Of a stretch of DNA of 64,000 nucleotides, positions 6,530 through 53,479 are shown piece after piece. The DNA is taken from NCBI RefSeq assembly GCF_011009015.1, contig NZ_CP048878.1, forward strand, positions 1,353,501 to 1,417,500, in the 5' to 3' direction. Position 1 is the first letter of the stretch, and each line of letters begins with the position of its first letter. Origin of the DNA: Spartinivicinus ruber (GTDB taxonomy: Bacteria > Pseudomonadota > Gammaproteobacteria > Pseudomonadales > Zooshikellaceae). The translations under genes and the position numbers were made by a program. The notes under the pieces were generated by a model that saw only the letters and a program-made list of their open reading frames with translations, ran no database searches and was not told the DNA's origin.

Positions 6530-6535
6530 ATTAAA

Positions 6536-6596
6536 GCTAACAAGCGCGTTAATTAGAGCGCTCGAAGGGTTGCGTCTATTACGCGGGCGTTATGTT
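6536..6596 (+). repeat. attC-like recombination site 1
   Basis: Starts AGCTAAC, ends GTTATGT, 61 bases. The internal arms AAGCGCGTTAAT and ATTACGCGGGC pair with unpaired bases, the pattern of integron attC sites (an 'AAC ... GTT' outer pair and an inner imperfect pair). The AGCTAACAAG start is shared exactly with the sites at 47735 and 48688, and GGCGTTATGT or GGCGTTAGCT ends all three. Confidence 0.75.
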
Positions 6597-9592: not shown

Positions 9593-9959
9593 ACCTGTTC
9601 AAGACTTTCTCTATCAAGCAATTTGTGTGATTGGTTGCTGGTAGAGTGATTCCTATCAACACACATTATATAGAGAAGCATTCATGAAAATGTACGTTGG
9701 CAACCTGTCATATAATGTCACAGCTGAAGATTTAAAAGAAACCTTTTCCACTTATGGTGCCGTAGCAGATGTAACGCTGATTACTGACCGGGATTCTGGT
9801 CAGTCTAAAGGCTTTGGCTTTGTTGAAATGGAGAATAACTCTGAAGCGGATGCGGCGATCAAAGGACTAAATGGTAGTAACCTACAAGGTCGAGATATGA
9901 AAGTGAATCAAGCTCAGCCAAAATCTAACAGTCGTCCACAACGTAGACCAAGGTATTAA
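9593..9959 (+). repeat. Left arm of inverted RRM duplication
   Basis: This segment, with the RRM gene and its leader, is repeated in reverse at 10479-10846. The homology ends abruptly at ACCTGT on the left. Arms are separated by about 520 bases that contain the attachment-site copy. Confidence 0.85.
9684..9959 (+). CDS. RRM-domain RNA-binding protein, copy 1
   Basis: A 91-residue single RNA-recognition-motif protein. RNP2 is 'MYVGNLS' (residues 3-9) and RNP1 is 'KGFGFVEM' (about 42-49), followed by a basic tail ending PQRRPRY. It resembles the cold-induced bacterial RNA-binding proteins of marine gammaproteobacteria and cyanobacteria. The leader (about 90 bases, conserved in both copies) may be regulatory. 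It differs from copy 2 at two residues (STYGA versus SVYGT). Confidence 0.9.
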   Translation: MKMYVGNLSYNVTAEDLKETFSTYGAVADVTLITDRDSGQSKGFGFVEMENNSEADAAIKGLNGSNLQGRDMKVNQAQPKSNSRPQRRPRY

Positions 9960-10205
9960 TAACGAATTTAGCTTCAAGCACTGAAGGTATTAAGTGGTGT
10001 AACTTTTGCCTTTAGTGATTAACCAAATTGTCACGAAGTTTTCATACTGACGAGCAAATCTTTTCCTTTGATTTGGGTTTTGAGTGCGAAACGAGTGCGA
10101 AAATTGTCCCCAATTACACACAAAACCTCACCCTGTAAGGTTTTCAGGTAATGTTATAAGTAATTGATTTTAAAGGGATTTTAGGAAATTTAAGGTGAGT
10201 GGAAT

Positions 10206-10231
10206 TGGTGGAGGCGGCGGGAATTGAACCC
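10206..10231. other. Attachment site, left (duplicate of tmRNA 3' end)
   Basis: 26 bases identical to 53454-53479, the 3' end of ssrA (starts TGGTGGAGGCGGC, ends GAATTGAACCC). The identity stops at once on the inner side. Only this short piece of ssrA is present here, so it is the far end of an element integrated at the tmRNA 3' end. Upstream similarity (GTGGAA before the repeat in both) suggests the ancestral junction. Confidence 0.85.
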
Positions 10232-10423
10232 TGTAGCAATAAAAGCTTAAACATTTATTCTTAAAGGTTATTTATGACTAAGCTGTAACGTTGGGGTGAA
10301 TAATGGGGACGGTGATTCCTCCTACTTTACACATTTAGACCTGCCTAGAGTATTGATTTCATTTAAATTTTTAGCAGGTTCAAACTATTCTAATCAGTGT
10401 AAAAGATGAATCAACATCTGACC
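10232..10423. other. Island left end, no gene seen
   Basis: About 190 bases between the attachment site and the RRM hairpin. They contain TGGGGTGAATAATGGGGAC near 10290-10310, resembling the TGGGGAA motifs near the other end. No coding frame stands out. Confidence 0.4.
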
Positions 10424-10459
10424 AATTTGGTGAGATAAAAAGTGCTTCCTCACCAAATT
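10424..10459 (-). terminator. Hairpin downstream of RRM copy 2
   Basis: AATTTGGTGAG and CTCACCAAATT pair perfectly over 11 bases around a 14-base loop, 20 bases after the stop of the leftward RRM gene. No strong T-run follows on the minus strand. Confidence 0.5.
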
Positions 10460-10478
10460 AAATTTAAAGCTCTAAGTA

Positions 10479-10754
10479 CTAATACCTAGGTCTACGCTGT
10501 GGGCGGCTGTTAGATTTTGGTTGAGCCTGATTCACTTTCATATCCCGGCCTTGCAAGTTACTACCATTCAGGCCTTTGATTGCGGCGTCCGCTTCCGAGT
10601 TATTCTCCATTTCCACAAAGCCAAAGCCTTTAGACTGGCCAGAATCCCGGTCAGTAATCAGCGTTACATCTGCTACGGTACCATAAACTGAAAAGGTTTC
10701 TTTTAAATCTTCGGCTGTGACATTGTATGACAGGTTGCCAACGTACATTTTCAT
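10479..10754 (-). CDS. RRM-domain RNA-binding protein, copy 2
   Basis: A 91-residue protein identical to the copy at 9684-9959 except at two positions; several synonymous base changes show the copies have diverged for some time. RNP1 KGFGFVEM and RNP2 MYVGNLS are intact. The upstream leader is shared with copy 1 to base 10846. It lies on the island side of the attachment site whereas copy 1 lies outside it. Confidence 0.9.
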   Translation of the reverse strand: MKMYVGNLSYNVTAEDLKETFSVYGTVADVTLITDRDSGQSKGFGFVEMENNSEADAAIKGLNGSNLQGRDMKVNQAQPKSNSRPQRRPRY

Positions 10755-22385: not shown

Positions 22386-23111
22386 TTATTGAGAATTTTC
22401 AAGATAATACTCATGAGATTTATTGCTGATTAGCTTTGAGATTTTGTTTCTTAAATATACCTTCACTAAACCACTAAAAGGTATTTTGTACTTAGGGTAA
22501 TGAGTTATAATAATGTCATTACAATAAACTATAAAGCTCGAATGATATTCTAGTGAATGTTCTTCACTCCTAACTATACCTAATTTTTTTTTAGTCAATT
22601 TGCCTGACAAAGGATGATTAATCTTTGTAGACTTAAAGCGCCACTCAGGCTTTTTAGGATTTGATGAGTTTCTCTCAATTATACAAAAATGATTATCGTA
22701 TTCATATCCTCTAAAGTTACATTCACTAATAGACTTTTTATCCATGCCTTTATTATCAAAATAAGGTTTTACCCCTTTTATTCCTAGCCCTGTATTTGCT
22801 TCGTGAGTCGAAGATCTTTCAGTTGCATTATTTTCATTAAGTTTGTATGTCATTTCTAAATCTAGCATATAACTTAATTCGTCTTCAGAATGAATATCAA
22901 ATTTTGCATTTTTTAATGATAAAACTAAGGTAGCAGCAGTTAATTGAAAACGGATAGCTCTATCAGTGAGCTTGTTATTTTCTTTGTTTGACCATTTAGC
23001 CTCGCAAAATTCCAAGCTGATTTTTAAATGATGTATTTTTTTATGAGGTACCTTTTCAGAAATAATACTATGATTCACACCTATGTCGCTAGTTGTCGTG
23101 TTAGGGGCCAT
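22386..23111 (-). CDS. Hypothetical protein upstream of the pentapeptide gene
   Basis: 241 residues, unrecognised. The mix of beta-strand and charged residues suggests a soluble protein; no signal or transmembrane segment. It ends 25 bases before the pentapeptide-repeat gene on the same strand, so they form a two-gene cargo operon. A copy of the dispersed repeat lies 80 bases upstream. Confidence 0.5.
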   Translation of the reverse strand: MAPNTTTSDIGVNHSIISEKVPHKKIHHLKISLEFCEAKWSNKENNKLTDRAIRFQLTAATLVLSLKNAKFDIHSEDELSYMLDLEMTYKLNENNATERSSTHEANTGLGIKGVKPYFDNKGMDKKSISECNFRGYEYDNHFCIIERNSSNPKKPEWRFKSTKINHPLSGKLTKKKLGIVRSEEHSLEYHSSFIVYCNDIIITHYPKYKIPFSGLVKVYLRNKISKLISNKSHEYYLENSQ

Positions 23112-32480: not shown

Positions 32481-33692
32481 ATGGCTTACGCTGAAGAGAT
32501 TAATAAAACAATTGAGGCATTAGGTGGTGCCTTTAATGAGTTTAAAAAAACCAATGATGAACGCTTAACGACCTTAGAAAAAGGTGACGCGCTGGATGGA
32601 TTGGTGGAAGGCAAACTGAAGTCAATCAATGACAAACTCTCAGAACTGGAAAAGCTCAAAGGTCAGTTTGAAGAACTGGAAACCAAAGCGAATCGCCCCG
32701 GCAGCACGTTTGGCGGTAAACAACAAAACGCCGAATATGAAAAAGCCTTTGATCAATTTGTCAGAAAAGGTAAAACCGACCAGATCGATGATTTAAAAAC
32801 CAAAACCATGCAAACCGGCAATGATGAGGATGGCGGTTATGCGGTACCGGAACAATTAGACCGGCAAATTATCGGTTTTGGCCGTGATCAAGTGGTGATG
32901 CGTTCGGTTTGCGCCAGCCAAACCTTATCAACGCCTGAGTTTAAAAAATTACGTAAAGAAGGCCGAGCCACATCCGGCTGGGTAGGGGAAACAGACCCAA
33001 GACCACAAACGGATACCCCTAAACTCAAAACGATTACACCCATCTGGGGAGAGATTTACGCCAATCCTGAAGCCACGCAAACCATGCTGGATGATGCATT
33101 TTTTAATGTACAACAGTTTTTAGTGGGGGAAGTTGGCGAAGAATTTAGCGAACAAGAAGAAATTGCCTTTACCCGTGGTGATGGTAACGACAAGCCAAAG
33201 GGATTGTTTGCTTATCCTCGCACTTTGGAGACCGATGATAAAAGAGCGTTTGGCAAATTGCAGTATTTGGATACCGCCACCGCTAAGCTCGAAGCAGATG
33301 ACCTGTTAAAGCTGTTGTACGCTTTAAAACGTAAATACCGCACCGGTGCTCGCTGGATGATGAACAGCACCAGTGTTGGGCAAGTACGGCTGATGAAGGA
33401 TAATGACGGTAATTATTTATGGAGCCCTGGCTTACAAGCCGGTGAGCCTTCACGGCTACTAGGCTATTCGCTGACAGAAAATGAGCAAGTCGATGACATT
33501 GCCGCGAAAAAAGCGCCGATATCCTTTGGTAACTTTAAGCGGGCGTATTTGATCTTAGATCGGATTGGTACCCGAGTGTTGCGCGATCCCTACACCAATA
33601 AACCCTTTGTGTCGTTTTATACCACCAAGCGGGTGGGGAATATGTTGTTGGATAGCAATGCTGTTAAGGTATTACAAATTAAAGGGGGTTAA
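32481..33692 (+). CDS. Major capsid protein, HK97 family
   Basis: 403 residues. The N-terminal delta/scaffold region (about 1-85) is charged and coiled ('LGGAFNEFKKTNDERL'). The mature fold starts near residue 110 ('TGNDEDGGYAVPEQLDRQII'), with E-loop and P-domain landmarks 'ATSGWVGET' and 'FNVQQFLVGEVGEEFSEQEE'. The prohead protease would remove the scaffold region. Confidence 0.95.
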   Translation: MAYAEEINKTIEALGGAFNEFKKTNDERLTTLEKGDALDGLVEGKLKSINDKLSELEKLKGQFEELETKANRPGSTFGGKQQNAEYEKAFDQFVRKGKTDQIDDLKTKTMQTGNDEDGGYAVPEQLDRQIIGFGRDQVVMRSVCASQTLSTPEFKKLRKEGRATSGWVGETDPRPQTDTPKLKTITPIWGEIYANPEATQTMLDDAFFNVQQFLVGEVGEEFSEQEEIAFTRGDGNDKPKGLFAYPRTLETDDKRAFGKLQYLDTATAKLEADDLLKLLYALKRKYRTGARWMMNSTSVGQVRLMKDNDGNYLWSPGLQAGEPSRLLGYSLTENEQVDDIAAKKAPISFGNFKRAYLILDRIGTRVLRDPYTNKPFVSFYTTKRVGNMLLDSNAVKVLQIKGG

Positions 33693-33698
33693 CCACTT

Positions 33699-33725
33699 TT
33701 AATAGCCAGAACTCCTGGCTATTAA
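33699..33725. terminator. Hairpin between the capsid gene and a reversed cargo gene
   Basis: TTAATAGCCAG and CTGGCTATTAA are perfect 11-base arms around a 5-base loop. It separates convergent genes and can act in both directions, though the following T-runs are weak. Confidence 0.65.
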
Positions 33726-33731
33726 TAAATG

Positions 33732-34031
33732 TTACATTTTACACACTCTAATTTTTTCAGTGACAGTTTCTAAAAATTCATCACTTGCCCCCATACGTTT
33801 TTTGGCCTCTTCAGGAGAATCAAACCTAGGTGCAGAACCTAATGATGTATAGCCACCGCTTGTAGTCGCATAGCATCCTGAAACCCAGCCTCTACAGGTT
33901 TTATTCGATCTAACAACCCATTTAGTAACCGTTATTTCTTGCTGTTTGTATTTTGGGCAGGAATAAATATTTTCATATGCATTGGTAGTATTTATACAGA
34001 TGAGGCCAAAGAATAGTAGGTATTTCTTCAT
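33732..34031 (-). CDS. Small secreted protein, reversed cargo gene in the head operon
   Basis: The start is taken at ATG 34031, which opens a clean signal peptide 'MKKYLLFFGLICINTTNA', likely cut after Ala18. The mature part, about 81 residues, has four cysteines ('YSCPKYK', 'KTCRGWVSGCYA', and the last at C-x-M). It is transcribed against the phage late operon, with the hairpin at its 3' end, so it is a typical lysogenic-conversion cargo gene. Function unknown. Confidence 0.65.
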   Translation of the reverse strand: MKKYLLFFGLICINTTNAYENIYSCPKYKQQEITVTKWVVRSNKTCRGWVSGCYATTSGGYTSLGSAPRFDSPEEAKKRMGASDEFLETVTEKIRVCKM

Positions 34032-34203
34032 ATAAAATATGTTCCTGGAAAGGTGCATGAATATTAAATGTTTTAAAAAAATACATTAACCATGTTACTT
34101 AAAATATGTGCAATTTCAACGTATAAAATGTGCAAATTCAGTGCAAACTTTAGATTGGTACTCTTTACCAAATTGCTATCTACATTTCATACTTTAAATC
34201 AAG
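34032..34203. promoter_or_regulatory. Divergent AT-rich region in the head operon
   Basis: About 170 AT-rich bases between the cargo gene and the connector gene. It presumably contains the cargo gene's promoter; no coding frame. Confidence 0.35.
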
Positions 34204-34512
34204 ATGATTAACCTTGAGTTAGTAAAAAAGCATCTCAATATTGATGAGGCGTTAACCGAAGATGACGCCTATTTGCAAGTATTAACCGAGGCGGCTATCG
34301 CTAACTTTGAAAGCACCACACAACGTCCGTTAGTGAAGGAAAACCCTACTGATACAGCCGTGATGATCACCCGTGAAATTGAAATTGGTTTACTCATGCT
34401 AATTGGCCACTGGTATAACAACCGGGAGTCTGTAGTGATTGGAGGGGTTGTCAGCGAATTACCGTTATCGACCCAAGCTATTTGGAATAAATACCGTTTT
34501 AAATCCCTATGA
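34204..34512 (+). CDS. Head-tail connector (gp6 family)
   Basis: 102 residues. 'LVKKHLNIDEALTEDDAYLQ' followed by 'AAIANFESTTQRPL' and 'MLIGHWYNNRES' is the signature of HK97 gp6-type connectors, which form the ring below the portal. It overlaps the closure gene by four bases. Confidence 0.9.
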   Translation: MINLELVKKHLNIDEALTEDDAYLQVLTEAAIANFESTTQRPLVKENPTDTAVMITREIEIGLLMLIGHWYNNRESVVIGGVVSELPLSTQAIWNKYRFKSL

Positions 34513-35229: not shown

Positions 35230-36082
35230 AATTAAAATCCAACAAGCCTTGTCCGCATTAGTGGATGATCGAGCTTACCCAACCATACTACCTGAAAAAG
35301 CCAAATACCCAGCCATCACTTACCATCGGGTGAATGCAGCTCAAGGCAGTGGCCGTATTAATACCACTGAAATCAGTGGACAAAACAGCGTATTTCAGGT
35401 GGTTGTTTGGAGCCAAAATTATGGCCAAGCACATTTGCTACAAAAGCAGTGTATAACTGAGTTTGCAAGCTTGGGGCTGCAACTGATATCCAGTGCGGAT
35501 GGCTTTGAACCCGAAAAAATGCTGCACTCGGTGATTATGGAGTTTGAGTGCTGGGGTGATTTAGCCTTAGTGGCAGATCGGCAAAGCACCCCAGACAAAA
35601 GCCCAATTAAACAGTTTTTAAATAATGTACAGCAGCAGCTGTCTACGGTTTCCAATACCGCGCTGACTGATTACCAACTAGTTCAGCCGGTATTACCCGC
35701 CATTGTCCTTAAGCTACGACAAATTAAGCCTGCTAACGATTGGAGCGGGCCTGGCGCAGTAGAATGTAACTTAACTGCCTATTGTTGCCATCAAGTCGGC
35801 TACGCTGGGGATTTGGCGACTCAAGTATCATTACTGATTAATGCAAATCAATGGGACTTAGGCGACGCGCTGGACTTCCCGAAAAACATTACCGCTGATC
35901 AAGAAGTTATGTCACTGGGTGAGACACCCTACGAGCGCTGGCAAGTGAATTGGCAGCAAGTGATTAGAACCGAAGCATCAATCTGGCAAGACAGCGGTAC
36001 ACCACCAACCACTGTCTTATGCAGTGATGCCCCTGAGATTGGAATCCCCCATAAAGATGACTACCGAGTTGTTTCGCGTTAA
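35222..36082 (+). CDS. Fused tail-completion protein (DUF3168-like plus gp37-like)
   Basis: 286 residues. Residues 1-125 resemble the DUF3168 tail-terminator family ('IQQALSALVDDRAYPTILPE', 'VFQVVVWSQNYGQAHLLQKQ'). Residues about 140-260 resemble a tail protein of gp37/DUF1834 type ('PVLPAIVLKLRQIKPANDWS', 'AVECNLTAYCCHQVG'). Normally these are separate genes. The fusion lies at the seam between the HK97-type head and P2-type tail, so it may be the adaptor that makes the mosaic work. Confidence 0.6.
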   Translation: MIEIKIQQALSALVDDRAYPTILPEKAKYPAITYHRVNAAQGSGRINTTEISGQNSVFQVVVWSQNYGQAHLLQKQCITEFASLGLQLISSADGFEPEKMLHSVIMEFECWGDLALVADRQSTPDKSPIKQFLNNVQQQLSTVSNTALTDYQLVQPVLPAIVLKLRQIKPANDWSGPGAVECNLTAYCCHQVGYAGDLATQVSLLINANQWDLGDALDFPKNITADQEVMSLGETPYERWQVNWQQVIRTEASIWQDSGTPPTTVLCSDAPEIGIPHKDDYRVVSR

Positions 36083-36629
36083 TGAGCTTTACCGGCTTTT
36101 AGTTAACTTAATTCGCCCTGGCACCATTCACCAAGTTGACCATCAACGCACTCGCGTCAGGGTTCAAATTGATGAATTAACCTCTGGTTGGTTACCTTGG
36201 TTAACTACCAGAGCTGGTAATGACCAAAGCTGGTGGGCACCGGAAGTGGGTGAGCAAGTCATTGTGTTATCCCCCAGTGGCGAATTAGCCAATGGTTTTG
36301 TGTTACCGGCTGTCTATCAAAACAAGTACCCAACCCCTAGCCATGATCCAGATGAGTCGGTATGGCAGTTTAAAAATCATGCCCGGTTTAGCTATCACCG
36401 AGGCAATGATGAATTAATCATTGAGTTAACGGGGGCAGGTAATACCAAGCTAATTAGCCCTGAAGGTATTCATTTTGTCGGTGATTTATTGGTTGAGGGA
36501 AATATTAAAGCCACTCAAGAAATAACCGATCACACCCGCAGTATGCAGGCGGATCGGGATATTTATAACGGACACAAGCATGATGTTGTTGGCCACAGTA
36601 CAGCGGTGCCAACAGGGAACAGACAGTAA
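36057..36629 (+). CDS. Baseplate spike protein V
   Basis: The start is ATG 36057. 190 residues. The OB-like N-terminus ('LIRPGTIHQVDHQRTRVRVQ', 'GWLPWLTTRAGNDQSWWAPE', 'EQVIVLSPSGEL') and the HGHKHDV-like tip ('IYNGHKHDVVGHS') match P2 gpV, the membrane-piercing spike. It is the first tail gene; gene W follows only after an inserted channel gene. Confidence 0.9.
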   Translation: MTTELFRVNELYRLLVNLIRPGTIHQVDHQRTRVRVQIDELTSGWLPWLTTRAGNDQSWWAPEVGEQVIVLSPSGELANGFVLPAVYQNKYPTPSHDPDESVWQFKNHARFSYHRGNDELIIELTGAGNTKLISPEGIHFVGDLLVEGNIKATQEITDHTRSMQADRDIYNGHKHDVVGHSTAVPTGNRQ

Positions 36630-36630
36630 A

Positions 36631-36658
36631 TTGCACAGTTAGGCTAGCTACATACTAT
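36631..36658 (+). promoter_or_regulatory. Promoter of the channel cargo gene
   Basis: TTGCAC (36631-36636), 16 bases, TACTAT (36653-36658), directly after the V gene and 39 bases before the channel ATG. AGGAG precedes the start. A private promoter is typical of phage cargo genes. Confidence 0.6.
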
Positions 36659-36696
36659 CCTTGCCTAATCATGGATGATTGATTTAGGAGATAGCT

Positions 36697-37401
36697 ATGG
36701 ATAGTATGCAAGCACTAAAGCTGAGTAATAAAGATGAGCTGATAAAACTTGCTGATTATTTAATATATGCATTTATAATTTTATCAGTCTTTACTTTCTC
36801 AATTGAAACCCTACCAGATTTATCAGCCTCTAGTCGAAAACTGTTAAGGTATCTAGAAATTGTAACAGTGATTGTTTTCACTATTGAATATGTATTGAGG
36901 ATTTTCTTTGCAGATCGCAAACTAAAATATATTTTTAGTTTCTATGGTCTAATTGATTTGCTAGCAATTTTGCCGTTTTACATAGCAACCAGTCTTGACC
37001 TAAGAGCACTAAGAATTGTTAGGCTATTTAGGTTGCTAAGAGTATTAAAGATTATTAGATATTCACAAGCTATTCGGCGTTATCACCGGGCATTGATAAT
37101 TGCAAAAGCCGAGTTAGTATTATTTGGTTTTACAGCAATTATTTTGTTATATCTAGCTGCAGTGGGTATTTATTATTTTGAAAGTGTTGCTCAGCCAGAA
37201 CAGTTTCAATCGATTTTTCACAGCTTGTGGTGGGCAGTAGCTACCTTAACAACTGTCGGTTATGGAGATGTATACCCAATTACATTGGGTGGTAGGCTAT
37301 TTACCTTTGTGATTTTAACCATAGGGCTTGGCTTTGTGGCGGTGCCAACAGGTTTGCTGGCATCTGCATTATCCCAAGCAAGGAATGAAGAAGATCAATA
37401 A
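36697..37401 (+). CDS. Voltage-gated potassium channel, six-helix type
   Basis: 234 residues. It has S1-S6 architecture. The voltage-sensor helix S4 is 'LRALRIVRLFRLLRVLKIIR', with arginines at every third position. The selectivity filter TTVGYGD is at residues 185-191, and a pore helix and S6 follow ('GRLFTFVILTIGLGFVAVPT'). It should pass K+ across the inner membrane on depolarisation. The gene interrupts the phage V-W baseplate order and has its own promoter and terminator-like hairpin, so it is cargo. Confidence 0.9.
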   Translation: MDSMQALKLSNKDELIKLADYLIYAFIILSVFTFSIETLPDLSASSRKLLRYLEIVTVIVFTIEYVLRIFFADRKLKYIFSFYGLIDLLAILPFYIATSLDLRALRIVRLFRLLRVLKIIRYSQAIRRYHRALIIAKAELVLFGFTAIILLYLAAVGIYYFESVAQPEQFQSIFHSLWWAVATLTTVGYGDVYPITLGGRLFTFVILTIGLGFVAVPTGLLASALSQARNEEDQ

Positions 37402-37408
37402 TTTAAGT

Positions 37409-37437
37409 GTTACGGGAGTTCTCGTAACGGTATTTTT
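37409..37437 (+). terminator. Terminator-like hairpin after the channel gene
   Basis: GTTACG...CGTAAC with an inner extension, followed by GGTATTTTT. It abuts the ATG of gene W at 37438. Confidence 0.55.
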
Positions 37438-37773
37438 ATGCAAGGCACCAACCGACAAACTGGTAAACCCCTTTCTATCCTCGATCACCTCCGCCAATCC
37501 ATCACCGACATTCTGACCACCCGCATTGGTACAAGACTGATGCGGCGTGATTATGGCAGTCGTTTACCTGAATTAGTGGATCGCCCCATGAATGGTCAGT
37601 GGTTAGTGGAAATCTATGCAGCGACTGCTGAAGCCTTAATCCGTTGGGAACCCCGTTTAAAGGTTACCAAGGTGCAAGCGTTTCGTGGTGAACCTGGCGA
37701 GTTATTGATTGCGTTAGAAGGGATTTATTTACCCGAAGGCAAACCCATTACCTTGGATGGCATCATTGTATGA
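37438..37773 (+). CDS. Baseplate protein W (gp25-like)
   Basis: 111 residues. 'HLRQSITDILTTRIGTRLMR' and 'RDYGSRLPELVDRP' match P2 gpW and T4 gp25, a conserved wedge component that starts sheath assembly. It lies after the inserted channel gene and overlaps J by four bases. Confidence 0.95.
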   Translation: MQGTNRQTGKPLSILDHLRQSITDILTTRIGTRLMRRDYGSRLPELVDRPMNGQWLVEIYAATAEALIRWEPRLKVTKVQAFRGEPGELLIALEGIYLPEGKPITLDGIIV

Positions 37774-38666
37774 GCGAATTTACCGCCATTGATTTATCAC
37801 AGTTACCTGCACCGGATGTGATCGAGCCGATTGATTACGAGGAAATCCTCGCTTCCATGCTGGCCGATTTACAAAAGCGCGATAGCAGCTTTACGGCACT
37901 GGTCGAATCTGACCCGGCCATGAAGATTCTAGAAGTTTGCGCTTATCGTGAAATGTTGAAGTGCCAGCAATTTAATGAGCGGACTAAAGCCGTCATGTTA
38001 GCTTATGCGCAAGGTTCGGATTTAGATCATTTGGGTGCGAATTACGGCGTTAAGCGTAAAGTCATTAAACCGGCTGATGATAATCAAGTGCCACCGACAC
38101 CCGCTGTGATGGAATCTGATGAAGACTTTCGTCGTCGTATTCAATTAGGCCCCGAAGGCTATTCAACCGCTGGCCCGGTAGGTGCCTATTTAGCTCACTC
38201 GCATAATGCCCATGATCAAATTGCCGATGTCTCGGTGTATTCTGATCAGCCGGGCGAGGTGGTTATTACTTTTTTACGGCGACCATTGGCTGATGAAGCG
38301 GATATGGCACCGGATGAGGAAATAAAACAGGCGTTGTTAACCGCGTTAAATGATGAAGATGTCAGGCCATTAACTGATCATATTACTGTGCAAGCGGCGG
38401 AAATTATCGACTATGCCATTGATGCGAAACTGCATGTACAACAAGGGCCGTCTTCCAAAACCATTATGGATACGGCGACGGCTGCCTTAAATACGTATGT
38501 TGATCAGTGTTATAAGCTGGGTAAAACCGTCGCCTTATCGGGTATTTATGATGCGTTGCATATGGGGGGCGTTACTCGCGTCGAATTAATTGCTCCAACT
38601 TCTGATATTCAAGCCAAAGTTTTTCAAGCGCCTAAAGCTAAATCTATTTTCATTACCCTCGCATAA
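37770..38666 (+). CDS. Baseplate assembly protein J
   Basis: 298 residues. 'YEEILASMLADLQKRDSSFT', 'LAYAQGSDLDHLGANYGVKR' and 'FRRRIQLGPEGYSTAGPVGA' match P2 gpJ, the baseplate wedge. The operon continues to I after 4 bases. Confidence 0.95.
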   Translation: MSEFTAIDLSQLPAPDVIEPIDYEEILASMLADLQKRDSSFTALVESDPAMKILEVCAYREMLKCQQFNERTKAVMLAYAQGSDLDHLGANYGVKRKVIKPADDNQVPPTPAVMESDEDFRRRIQLGPEGYSTAGPVGAYLAHSHNAHDQIADVSVYSDQPGEVVITFLRRPLADEADMAPDEEIKQALLTALNDEDVRPLTDHITVQAAEIIDYAIDAKLHVQQGPSSKTIMDTATAALNTYVDQCYKLGKTVALSGIYDALHMGGVTRVELIAPTSDIQAKVFQAPKAKSIFITLA

Positions 38667-45616: not shown

Positions 45617-45693
<77 letters not shown>

Positions 45694-46748: not shown

Positions 46749-46860
46749 AGTATAAAAGAAAGCTAAAAACAATTCAAACTATTAAAAATCAGCTATTTAT
46801 GGAGAATAGTTAAATATTAATCTGGGTATAAAACTGTGAATTTTATCAATTAGTTTGGGG
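46749..46860. other. Gap after gene D
   Basis: About 110 AT-rich bases with no gene. Marks the transition from phage to cassettes. Confidence 0.4.
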
Positions 46861-46920
46861 TGTTATACGTCACTATGACGTAATGTATCACGTCATAGTG
46901 ACGTTCATTAGTAGTTAGCT
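46861..46920. repeat. Palindromic cassette leader, copy 2
   Basis: ACGTCACTATGACGT and ACGTCATAGTGACGT are perfect reverse complements (15 bases each) separated by AATGTATC. The block starts GTTATAC and ends GTAGTTAGCT. It resembles 6091-6150 closely, while the sequences outside do not match. The final GTTAGCT fits the integron core GTTRRRY. Confidence 0.7.
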
Positions 46921-46945
46921 TGACACCATAATTTAGATAGCTCAT

Positions 46946-47740
46946 ATGAAGAATGAACATAAAGATTCTCTAATTTTTTTCCTAGTCTTTGGGTTAATGC
47001 CATTTCTCTCATTTCACTCATTTATTTTTAGCTTAAACTCATATAAAGACTCTCTCGAGATACCTATATTTGTAGTTTTGCCGATTGTTTGGCTTTGTCT
47101 AATGAGAGTAACTAGATATATGCCATCAAGCATGGATAGAGTGATGTCTAGGAATAAGAGTATCGAGTTACCCAAAGCCCCTAAAAAGTTAGCATTAATA
47201 GAGGCCCCTTTCTGGTACTCAATAATTTTCTTAATCCATTACCTTTTGCCTTCCAGCCCGTTCTTGGATAACGGATCAGATAATATAAGTCATTGGGAAA
47301 CCCTTACTGGCTATGGATCATTCTTTCTCGCTAGCATAATTGGGGGGGGTTTTTGTATCTTTGTGATTGAGAATATGTCTGCAATTAGAAAGGAAATAAT
47401 TGCGTCTAAGTGGAAGGAGATGACAAAGAGATTGTCTTCTGTATTCTTTTCATATGTCGGAATTGGTTTACTATTTTCTGGTTTATACAGATGGACTTCA
47501 ATGGCTAATAAACAAGCCTTTTCAAGACCATTTGAGTCAACAATTGATTCTATTTACTTCAGCATTGTTACACTAACAACCCTTGGATATGGAGATATCA
47601 CCCCTAAATCTGATATGGCAAAGGTTTTGGTGATGTTTGAAACTTTAACTGGAGTTATATTTTTAGCCATTATGATAGGTCTCATAATTTCAGTTTCTTT
47701 AACTAATAAAGATGAGCTGCAATGTGAAGAAAAAAGCTAA
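46946..47740 (+). CDS. Potassium channel-like protein, cassette gene
   Basis: 264 residues. The selectivity filter TTLGYGD is at 211-217, with a pore helix before it and a final hydrophobic helix after. Several N-terminal hydrophobic segments precede it (about 8-30, 38-55, 87-105, 120-140, 162-182), without an Arg-rich S4. Probably a non-voltage-gated K+ channel. Its stop codon overlaps the start of an attC site, as expected of a cassette gene. It is unrelated to the channel at 36.7 kb beyond the pore. Confidence 0.8.
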   Translation: MKNEHKDSLIFFLVFGLMPFLSFHSFIFSLNSYKDSLEIPIFVVLPIVWLCLMRVTRYMPSSMDRVMSRNKSIELPKAPKKLALIEAPFWYSIIFLIHYLLPSSPFLDNGSDNISHWETLTGYGSFFLASIIGGGFCIFVIENMSAIRKEIIASKWKEMTKRLSSVFFSYVGIGLLFSGLYRWTSMANKQAFSRPFESTIDSIYFSIVTLTTLGYGDITPKSDMAKVLVMFETLTGVIFLAIMIGLIISVSLTNKDELQCEEKS

Positions 47741-47830
47741 CAAGCAGCAGCAACGGACTGCCAAATCTGTCACTCAAATTGCTTCGCAATTACGTGCCAG
47801 CTTTGCCAGCCGCTGTGCTGGGCGTTAGCT
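47735..47830 (+). repeat. attC-like recombination site 2
   Basis: Starts AGCTAAC, ends GTTAGCT, 96 bases. Inner parts CAGCAGCAACGGACTGCC and GGCAAAG/CTGGC-type segments on the far side pair imperfectly, as in integron attC sites. The long, GC-rich internal arms resemble Vibrio-type sites. Confidence 0.8.
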
Positions 47831-47847
47831 TTCAATCGGAGATATAA

Positions 47848-48693
47848 ATGAGATTGATCATAATTGCACTACTACTTTTTCTTTCATCTTCGTTAAGTTG
47901 GTCGAATGAAATATTAGTTGGTGATGTCTCTTTAGAAATCCCTAACCCAGAGGGGTTTAGTGCTGTTACGCCTAAAATGGCCTTTCTCTCCGAAGTGCTG
48001 AAGAAGTTTGTGGCACCAATGAATGAGGAGTTTGTCTCGTTTATACCTGACGATGTGGTAGAGATAGTTTTGAAGGATGAAATTCCAAACTTGCCTAGAC
48101 GTTTCGCAGTTCAAACCGCCAAAAACCTGATAAACATAACAGTAACTAGCTCAGATTTTGCAACTCTTAAAAAAACCATAAAAACTCAAAATACAGAGTT
48201 AATCAAGAAAGTTGAAGCTCGGCTACCTGAGCTGGTGGGAAAAATAAATGATGGTATAAAAGAGAAATATGATGTTGATCTAGCTTTTTCTGTATATCAA
48301 ATGATCCCGATGCCTGTGCACAAGGAGACTGATCGTACGCTTTCTTATTCGGCATTAGTAAAGTACAACATGAAAGATAAAATGGGTAATCCAGCGCCTT
48401 TTATTTCAGTTGTTACCTCAACATTTGTGCATGTGAAGGGAAAAGTACTCTTTCTATATTCATATGCTGAAGAGTCAGGTTTGGATTGGAGTAAGCAAGC
48501 TTCAAATATCTGGGCTAACAACGTTGTTATATCTAACCCTTCAGATATACAGACAAGTGTTAAAGAAACGGTCCCACCCAGTGTTTCTAGAATTGATTGG
48601 GGACAAGTAGCGGAAAAAGCTTTGATAGGTGCAATCATTGGACTAATTCTTGGTCTTTTGGGATGGATTAAAAAACGAACAAAACAAAGCTAA
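47848..48693 (+). CDS. Secreted/anchored protein, cassette gene, unknown function
   Basis: 281 residues. The signal peptide 'MRLIIIALLLFLSSSLSWS' is cut near 19. The soluble middle, about 230 residues, resembles no family I know. A C-terminal glycine-rich hydrophobic segment ('ALIGAIIGLILGLLGWIKKR') is followed by a basic tail, which predicts an exported domain held by a C-terminal anchor. The stop overlaps the next attC site. Confidence 0.65.
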   Translation: MRLIIIALLLFLSSSLSWSNEILVGDVSLEIPNPEGFSAVTPKMAFLSEVLKKFVAPMNEEFVSFIPDDVVEIVLKDEIPNLPRRFAVQTAKNLINITVTSSDFATLKKTIKTQNTELIKKVEARLPELVGKINDGIKEKYDVDLAFSVYQMIPMPVHKETDRTLSYSALVKYNMKDKMGNPAPFISVVTSTFVHVKGKVLFLYSYAEESGLDWSKQASNIWANNVVISNPSDIQTSVKETVPPSVSRIDWGQVAEKALIGAIIGLILGLLGWIKKRTKQS

Positions 48694-48748
48694 CAAGTAA
48701 AGGTATGGGACGTAGTTTTCAACTCCGCCCATGCTTTAGGCGTTATGT
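48688..48748 (+). repeat. attC-like recombination site 3
   Basis: Starts AGCTAAC, ends GTTATGT, 61 bases. GTAAAGGTATGGG and GCCCATGCTTTAGG pair across the site. Ends the second cassette cluster. Confidence 0.75.
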
Positions 48749-53453: not shown

Positions 53454-53479
53454 TGGTGGAGGCGGCGGGAATTGAACCC
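53454..53479. other. Attachment site, right (inside ssrA)
   Basis: 26 bases identical to 10206-10231. They form the last bases of tmRNA including CCA, so insertion restores the gene. Confidence 0.85.

Follow-up and report, generated by a model that had tools for sequence, protein, structure and literature searches.

A Kv-type potassium channel gene as cargo between the baseplate genes V and W of a Spartinivicinus ruber prophage

Morons are phage cargo genes with their own promoter and terminator and an odd base composition, and are expressed from the repressed prophage. The viral channel Kcv, which is located in the membrane of the virion, is small and consists of a pore only. Ion-transport genes have already been annotated in phages, as PHROG 7872 and in several phage records. 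The interval between cI and the integrase gene of K139-like P2 phages has been described as an anti-phage hotspot (PMC9122126). For chlorovirus Kcv, depolarisation of the host has been reported to block a second infection (PMC7019647), and RexB-type effectors together with Kcv may, by analogy, be taken as precedents for exclusion via membrane ion flux (PMC6426606, PMC7019647). In a study of Pseudomonas putida, activated RexB gave no depolarisation signal (PMC12894663), which counts against a simple depolarisation model. Among the listed titles and abstracts of matching open-licence literature, there was no study of a bacteriophage K+ channel and no V–W cargo hotspot.

The channel gene and its prophage

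The window, that is, the whole analysed stretch of 64,000 nucleotides (G000:C1:1353501-1417500), comes from a genome of 6.69 Mb in four contigs and contains a prophage of approximately 43 kb, which spans about 10206-53479 at the 3′ end of the tmRNA gene between two direct repeats (Table 1). Pfam identified the P2-type tail genes V, W, J, I, fibre, sheath, U, and D, and the head genes are HK97-like by inspection only. The channel gene KCH1 is placed in the late operon and shares the strand of V and W, with V on its 5′ side and W, J, I, and the tail fibre gene on its 3′ side (Pfam, PHROG). The earlier note had located a channel between V and W, and this position was confirmed, the interval that it reported (36631-37437) corresponding approximately to the whole insert from the V stop to the W start. 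Elsewhere in the window, two near-identical 91-aa RNA-binding-like proteins are encoded in opposite directions at 9684-10754, flanking the attL-like repeat, and a 241-aa ORF on the minus strand of the early region (22386-23111) weakly matched TIR-like ThsB in PADLOC (5.5e-5).

Table 1. Features of the prophage (positions in the window) and V–W cargos of related prophages
Feature	Position	Strand	Evidence or description
attL-like repeat of tmRNA 3′ end	10206..10231		26-bp exact direct repeat
Baseplate gene V, left slot edge	36051..36629	+	Pfam Phage_base_V 1.3e-19
V–W cargo slot, 808 bp insert	36630..37437		GC 0.355 (prophage 0.403, V 0.45, W 0.49); sister comparison
KCH1, Kv-type K+ channel, 234 aa; V–W cargo of the window prophage	36697..37401	+	Pfam, PHROG, PDB, residue conservation, AlphaFold2 model
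Hairpin and T-rich tail immediately 5′ of W; slot edge or W leader	37408..37437	+	Folding, terminator scan, L097 comparison
Baseplate wedge gene W (gp25-like), right slot edge	37438..37773	+	Pfam GPW_gp25 1.1e-15
Baseplate gene J	37770..38666	+	Pfam Baseplate_J 1.9e-21
KCH2, second K+ channel, 3′ of D	46946-47740		Pfam Ion_trans_2 5.5e-15
attC-like site after KCH2	47735-47830
281-aa gene, 3′ of D	47848-48693
attC-like site after the 281-aa gene	48688-48748
attR-like repeat, tmRNA gene 3′ end	53454..53479		26-bp exact repeat; tmRNA by ARAGORN and Rfam
L093 V–W cargo			85 aa
L094 V–W cargo			123 aa
L095 and L054 V–W cargo			164 aa, four hydrophobic segments
L097 V–W cargo		−	163 aa, DUF6174
L098 V–W cargo			135 aa, mannan-binding-lectin domain
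L099 V–W cargo			186 aa
L102 (G004, other genus of the family) V–W cargo			283 aa

The KCH1 reading frame is intact, with AGGAG 5′ of its ATG. Its product matched Pfam Ion_trans (1.6e-37) and Ion_trans_2 (1.2e-17) as well as PHROG 7872 (1.3e-48), the entry of which gives the function as unknown, and in a phmmer search of the PDB the top match was Kv4.3 (5.3e-27), with KvAP at 3.9e-16. The AlphaFold2 model, built on a 43-sequence alignment, had a mean pLDDT of 86.8, and its helices (14-37, 44-71, 82-96, 102-119, 137-162, 173-184, and 197-233) match S1–S6, the S4–S5 linker, and the pore helix. Human Kv4.2 ranked first in a Foldseek search with this model (TM 0.79-0.81 by query length). The charge ladder of S4 (R103, R106, R109, R112, R115, and K118) was kept at each position in 74-78 of 78 relatives, F61 and E64 of S2 in 77 of 77, and D87 of S3 in 78 of 78; the filter TTVGYGD (185-191) was kept in 75-78 of 78 relatives, its residues T-V-G-Y-G-D (186-191) in 77-78. 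KCH1 thus shows the marks of the Kv type, namely six transmembrane helices with a pore helix and re-entrant loop, an S4 ladder with acidic partners in S2 and S3, and the selectivity filter. The six-helix channel with Arg-rich S4 and TTVGYGD filter claimed by the earlier note was accordingly found in Pfam, in the PDB, in the conservation among the 78 relatives, in the AlphaFold2 model, and in Foldseek, and both its sequence and its predicted fold place KCH1 among the Kv channels.

Over the 122 codons shared with the C-terminal half of a copy in the congener G002, KCH1 is 85% identical in amino acids and 73.5% in nucleotides. The differences are distributed as 24/6/67 by codon position (dN 0.09, dS not estimable), and this bias towards the third position is what a selected protein shows, though part of the record may predate the phage. 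The GC3 of KCH1 is 0.26, compared with 0.42 in V, 0.46 in W, and 0.42 in J. In the host, dnaK has a GC3 of 0.31, so that the low GC of the slot comes close to host composition, and the contrast with the phage neighbours is to be read with caution.

The promoter that the earlier note assigned to KCH1, TTGCAC-16-TACTAT, shares 7 of 12 bases with the consensus, too few to be reached by a 9-of-12 scan; that scan, which covered promoters of the consensus type only, returned two sites in 36500-37500, compared with 3.6 in shuffled sequences, and neither lies within 36630-36696. An own promoter of the consensus type is thus not supported. The hairpin described as terminator-like is present at 37408-37429 (MFE −11.4 kcal/mol; equally good in 2 of 200 shuffles), and the terminator scan found one element against 0.6 expected by chance. 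However, the sister prophage L097 carries a similar hairpin 5′ of W behind an unrelated cargo, and the view that the hairpin is KCH1's own terminator, specific to the channel, is thereby weakened.

The V–W junction and its variable cargo

Sister prophages were sought by a search of 145 genomes with J and were found in the window's own genome and in two congeners. The V–W slot is occupied in eight of the nine sister prophages with readable V and W, the window included, by seven cargo types (Table 1), and in L100 the V–W gap is 11 bp. KCH1 itself is held by one of the nine. No similarity among the cargo types was detected by BLASTP at E below 1. Mean pairwise identity was 0.75 over the last 60 bases of V and 0.76 over the first 60 bases of W, compared with 0.30 over the first 40 and 0.39 over the last 40 bases of the slot, the GC content of which is 0.29-0.36 across sisters. 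When the cargo of G004 is counted as an eighth type, seven of the eight look membrane-bound or exported, as judged by eye from hydropathy and signal-like N-termini, the exception being the 186-aa protein. The sister count excludes L096, the contig of which ends before V and the remaining slot end of which is 66% identical to the L099 cargo, L101, in which J is truncated and the adjoining W missing, and L086 and L087 (IMG isolate), which nearly duplicate L093 and L095.

In 16 more distant phages, three of which (L088-L090) are near-identical contigs, the V–W junction measured −4 to +6 bp in 14 and 81 and 102 bp in two. V and W thus abut in most of these relatives, in line with the earlier note, which has them adjacent in P2-type phages. 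Since this junction is filled by different cargos in the sister prophages, or measures just 11 bp, KCH1 is to be regarded as inserted cargo, in agreement with that note, and the same comparison speaks against misassembly; the possibility that KCH1 is a host gene misplaced by the assembly was rejected. As regards channels at this junction in other prophages, cargo was found to recur there, but among the nine readable sister prophages the channel was present in that of the window only. KCH1 also bears marks of a moron, being an extra gene between genes that are adjacent in relatives and having a base composition unlike that of V and W, and it is very probably an intact channel gene carried as a moron. 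The KCH1 slot contains no second sizeable gene or partner gene, and neither the comparison of the other slot proteins with Pfam nor that of KCH1 with PADLOC gave a match to a defence family. The V–W slot provides a list of further uncharacterised envelope cargos.

The junction of the capsid gene with the first connector gene (33692-34204) is likewise variable. It is 511 bp long in the window prophage, where it holds a minus-strand 108-aa signal-peptide-like ORF, and measures 382-384 bp in three sisters and 32 bp in two. The tail genes are interspersed with a tRNA-Met (cat) gene at 45617-45693, 5′ of D, and the stretch 5′ of D varies from 26 to 1039 bp across sister prophages.

Downstream of D, the genes for KCH2 and a 281-aa protein are each followed by an attC-like site, and a third such site is located at 6535-6595, outside the prophage and near a partial phage region (1-2100). 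A strict attC pattern missed sites visible by eye, and a relaxed pattern with a shuffle control was used; the three sites of the window compare with a mean of 0.125 and a maximum of 1 in 40 dinucleotide shuffles. By inspection, a full hairpin ending in TAGTTAG follows D in four of ten sister prophages (window, L093, L099, and L034), only its right end is found in L094 and L096, and the other four have no hairpin; the sequences diverge just past it. Further attC-like sites occur in L093, L094, and L099. The 30-base hairpin tail was found at 14 places (up to three mismatches) in the five related genomes G000-G004, some on other contigs, and at none in a reversed control. No integron integrase above the cut-off was detected in the genome, and KCH2 has no relatives in the phage records or viral contigs. 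The stretch 46849-48748, in which KCH2 and the 281-aa gene follow the hairpin whereas sisters have different genes there, apparently represents integron gene cassettes whose site in the phage is conserved. Clusters of attC sites have been reported in phages, one of them 3′ of a terminator hairpin whose ends read GTTRRRY (PMC9892861). For KCH1, the relaxed scan detected no attC-like site at or near the gene's edges, and its being an integron cassette was rejected.

Relatives of the channel in phages and bacteria

Among 50,697 phage records, 14 matched KCH1, the top identities being below 60%. The channel lies just after the repressor region in PLE2, Dulem virus 33, and JNU_P5 and elsewhere in Humcor1; a match in 'Acinetobacter phage MD-2021a' was set aside, its contig carrying acnB and tamB. 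A broader profile found 47 viral contigs, two of them the L193 and L011 contigs again, and eight (L211-L218) reach at least 53% identity. Two channels are 62% identical: that of a Microbulbifer prophage (G019, the contig of L132) is flanked by terminase and neck genes and, across from these, by HNH and endolysin genes, and that of a Mu-like viral contig (L193, the same contig as L213) is located in a baseplate operon between a gp44-like hub and a gp45-like region on the opposite strand. In the P2-like L212, L214, and L215, channels 58-60% identical to KCH1 lie between the integrase gene and CI/CII-type regulators. The L212 interval encodes a TIR protein matching SpbK (PADLOC 1.6e-44), separated from the channel by two ORFs, and an AbiV protein (Pfam 3.5e-27, PADLOC 4.9e-6), the L215 interval a HEPN protein and a DUF3800 protein, and the L214 interval has only a weak HepT-like match; the scanned neighbours were hand-chosen, with no background rate to set these matches against. 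The L212 channel itself had no PADLOC match. The channel of L211 adjoins P2 gene D directly on the opposite strand, that of L217 is near the terminase gene, that of L218 is beside a repressor gene, and the L216 contig ends at the channel. In five of the other 39 contigs (L223, L224, L226, L227, and L254), a repressor-like ORF lies directly 5′ of the channel. The location of relatives beside repressor or integrase genes in several phages points to expression of KCH1 in the lysogen, which we consider likely.

In one scan of GTDB genomes, 217 loci were confirmed. The best 80 of these 217 relatives, 52-69% identical to KCH1, come from Pseudomonadota, Planctomycetota, Verrucomicrobiota, KSB1, and other phyla, and no neighbour was common to more than seven of 81 loci. 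In a comparison with 119 reference proteins, which is an insensitive test, single phage-like neighbours were matched at four bacterial loci besides L132 and L193. Since the majority of relatives belong to bacterial genomes, where no phage neighbours were recognised beside them, the channel family is not specific to phages or to defence. Of 72,556 plasmid records, 102 matched, and the full-length proteins among the matches listed are approximately 36-41% identical. A Kv-like channel gene of 277 codons, its product 38% identical to KCH1, belongs to the host itself, as do other Ion_trans_2 genes. In G022 (L033:100-2568), a 52-71% identical channel is split by an IS605-type orfB.

The nearest kin of KCH1 in the genus are, to judge from their sequences, decaying. 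The G002 copy is broken, its N-terminal half being about 55-59% and its C-terminal half 85% identical to KCH1, and lies beside a related prophage, just outside what by eye appears to be a tRNA-Arg 3′ fragment; ARAGORN detected no whole tRNA at this locus. G001 carries a shorter channel remnant at the same host locus. In a quick tree of 88 rows, the 10 phage rows required nine label changes, at least four of them forced by starred branches. Shuffled labels required about the same number, indicating that the phage rows are simply not clustered, and bacterial rows may include unrecognised prophages. The first tree omitted L132 as a copy of G019, and the second, that of 88 rows, omitted ten rows for their length or distance (PLE2, Dulem 33, Humcor1, L011, G035, G007, G013, G021, G052, and the G001 host). 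The channel subfamily appears to have entered phages several times from the bacterial gene pool.

Possible roles and comparison with known systems

Considering these results together, we tentatively favour, at somewhat short of even confidence, the following scenario, in which KCH1 is a moron expressed in the lysogen and might serve as a membrane effector against phages. A temperate phage whose tail is of P2 type would have acquired a complete Kv-type channel gene from the bacterial gene pool in its V–W slot. Made in the lysogen, KCH1 may assemble in the inner membrane as a tetrameric K+ channel. Channels of the Kv family are closed at the resting potential. Depolarisation of the membrane by an incoming phage might open KCH1, and the resulting K+ flux could make the second infection fail or abort, KCH1 acting as a one-gene membrane effector in the manner of RexB or Kcv. 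The intact reading frame with Kv signature residues, the third-position-biased divergence, the variable slot, and the repeated appearance of the channel in phages support this scenario, whereas the lack of a PADLOC match, of a consensus promoter, and of a sensor partner such as that of RexAB, together with the host's own Kv-like channel, count against it. The anti-phage role, taken separately, is possible but somewhat doubtful, the one line of evidence that favours superinfection exclusion or abortive infection being the neighbours of the channel in relatives. Of the effects that the earlier note named, the results bear on superinfection, not on biofilm signalling or lysis timing. More generally, stand-alone Kv channels may constitute an unrecognised anti-phage system, in which one Kv subfamily repeatedly occupies cargo hotspots (between int and cI, between V and W, and next to D) and detects depolarisation with its own sensor to exclude or abort infection, so that sensor and effector would be one protein of about 234 residues; we regard this generalisation as speculative and on the unlikely side. 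If true, a voltage sensor would double as an infection sensor, and bacterial electrophysiology and phage competition would be joined in a manner testable with one gene.

An alternative is lysogenic conversion independent of phage defence, in which the K+ conductance would tune the K+ content, osmotic response, or electrical signalling of the host and the phage would benefit from a fitter host. Such a role is in keeping with the wide occurrence of the subfamily in bacterial genomes without fixed neighbours and with the mannan-binding-lectin-like exported protein among the slot cargos, which resembles host-surface biology. However, the host already possesses a Kv-like channel and other Ion_trans_2 genes, and phage-borne relatives lie in int–cI intervals, one of them with known defence genes; we consider this alternative unlikely on the whole. 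It is less probable still that KCH1 is a neutral passenger, picked up by chance and without a selected role in this phage. Its presence in one of nine sister prophages and the decay of the related copies in G002 and G001 would fit a passenger, but the frame is intact, the residues are conserved, the divergence is biased to the third position (with the reservation on its age given above), and the subfamily appears repeatedly in unrelated phages. A late function, in which induction would lead to transcription of KCH1 as part of the baseplate operon and the channel would aid lysis or particle release via membrane potential or turgor, agrees with its place in the late operon on the strand of V and W and with the failure to find an own promoter by consensus, but is improbable given that KCH1 is missing from eight of the nine sister prophages, that the L097 slot cargo is on the opposite strand, that the channel is opposite to the late genes in L211 and L193, and that several relatives adjoin repressors.

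The scenario of a lysogen-expressed moron can be set against several described systems. KCH1 resembles the prokaryotic Kv channel KvAP and the transmembrane part of Kv4 and Kv2 in its six helices, S4 ladder, S2/S3 counter-charges, and TVGYGD filter, and differs from them in being carried by a phage and in having 234 aa without a cytoplasmic domain; it is a predicted channel, known here from sequence and model. With PHROG 7872 and the annotated 'ion transporter' genes of PLE2, Dulem virus 33, JNU_P5, and the archaeal virus Humcor1, it shares the presence of an Ion_trans-type channel in a phage genome, but identity to these is below 60%, and theirs lie in the repressor region or at other places than the V–W junction. 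Like the cargo hotspots of P2-like phages, the slot holds short, fast-turnover cargo between conserved phage genes, whereas the hotspots described by Rousset et al. are near cos or between cI and the integrase gene (PMC9122126). The RexB-type effectors (lambda RexB, CarolAnn gp43, and P. putida RexB) are likewise prophage membrane proteins, and ion flux or damage to the membrane has been proposed as their mode of action (PMC6426606, PMC12894663). RexB depends on a sensor of the RexA type and is not known from these sources as a Kv channel, whereas KCH1 has no partner gene in its slot. Kcv is, like KCH1, a virus-encoded K+ channel, but KCH1 has a full voltage sensor and is located in a temperate phage.
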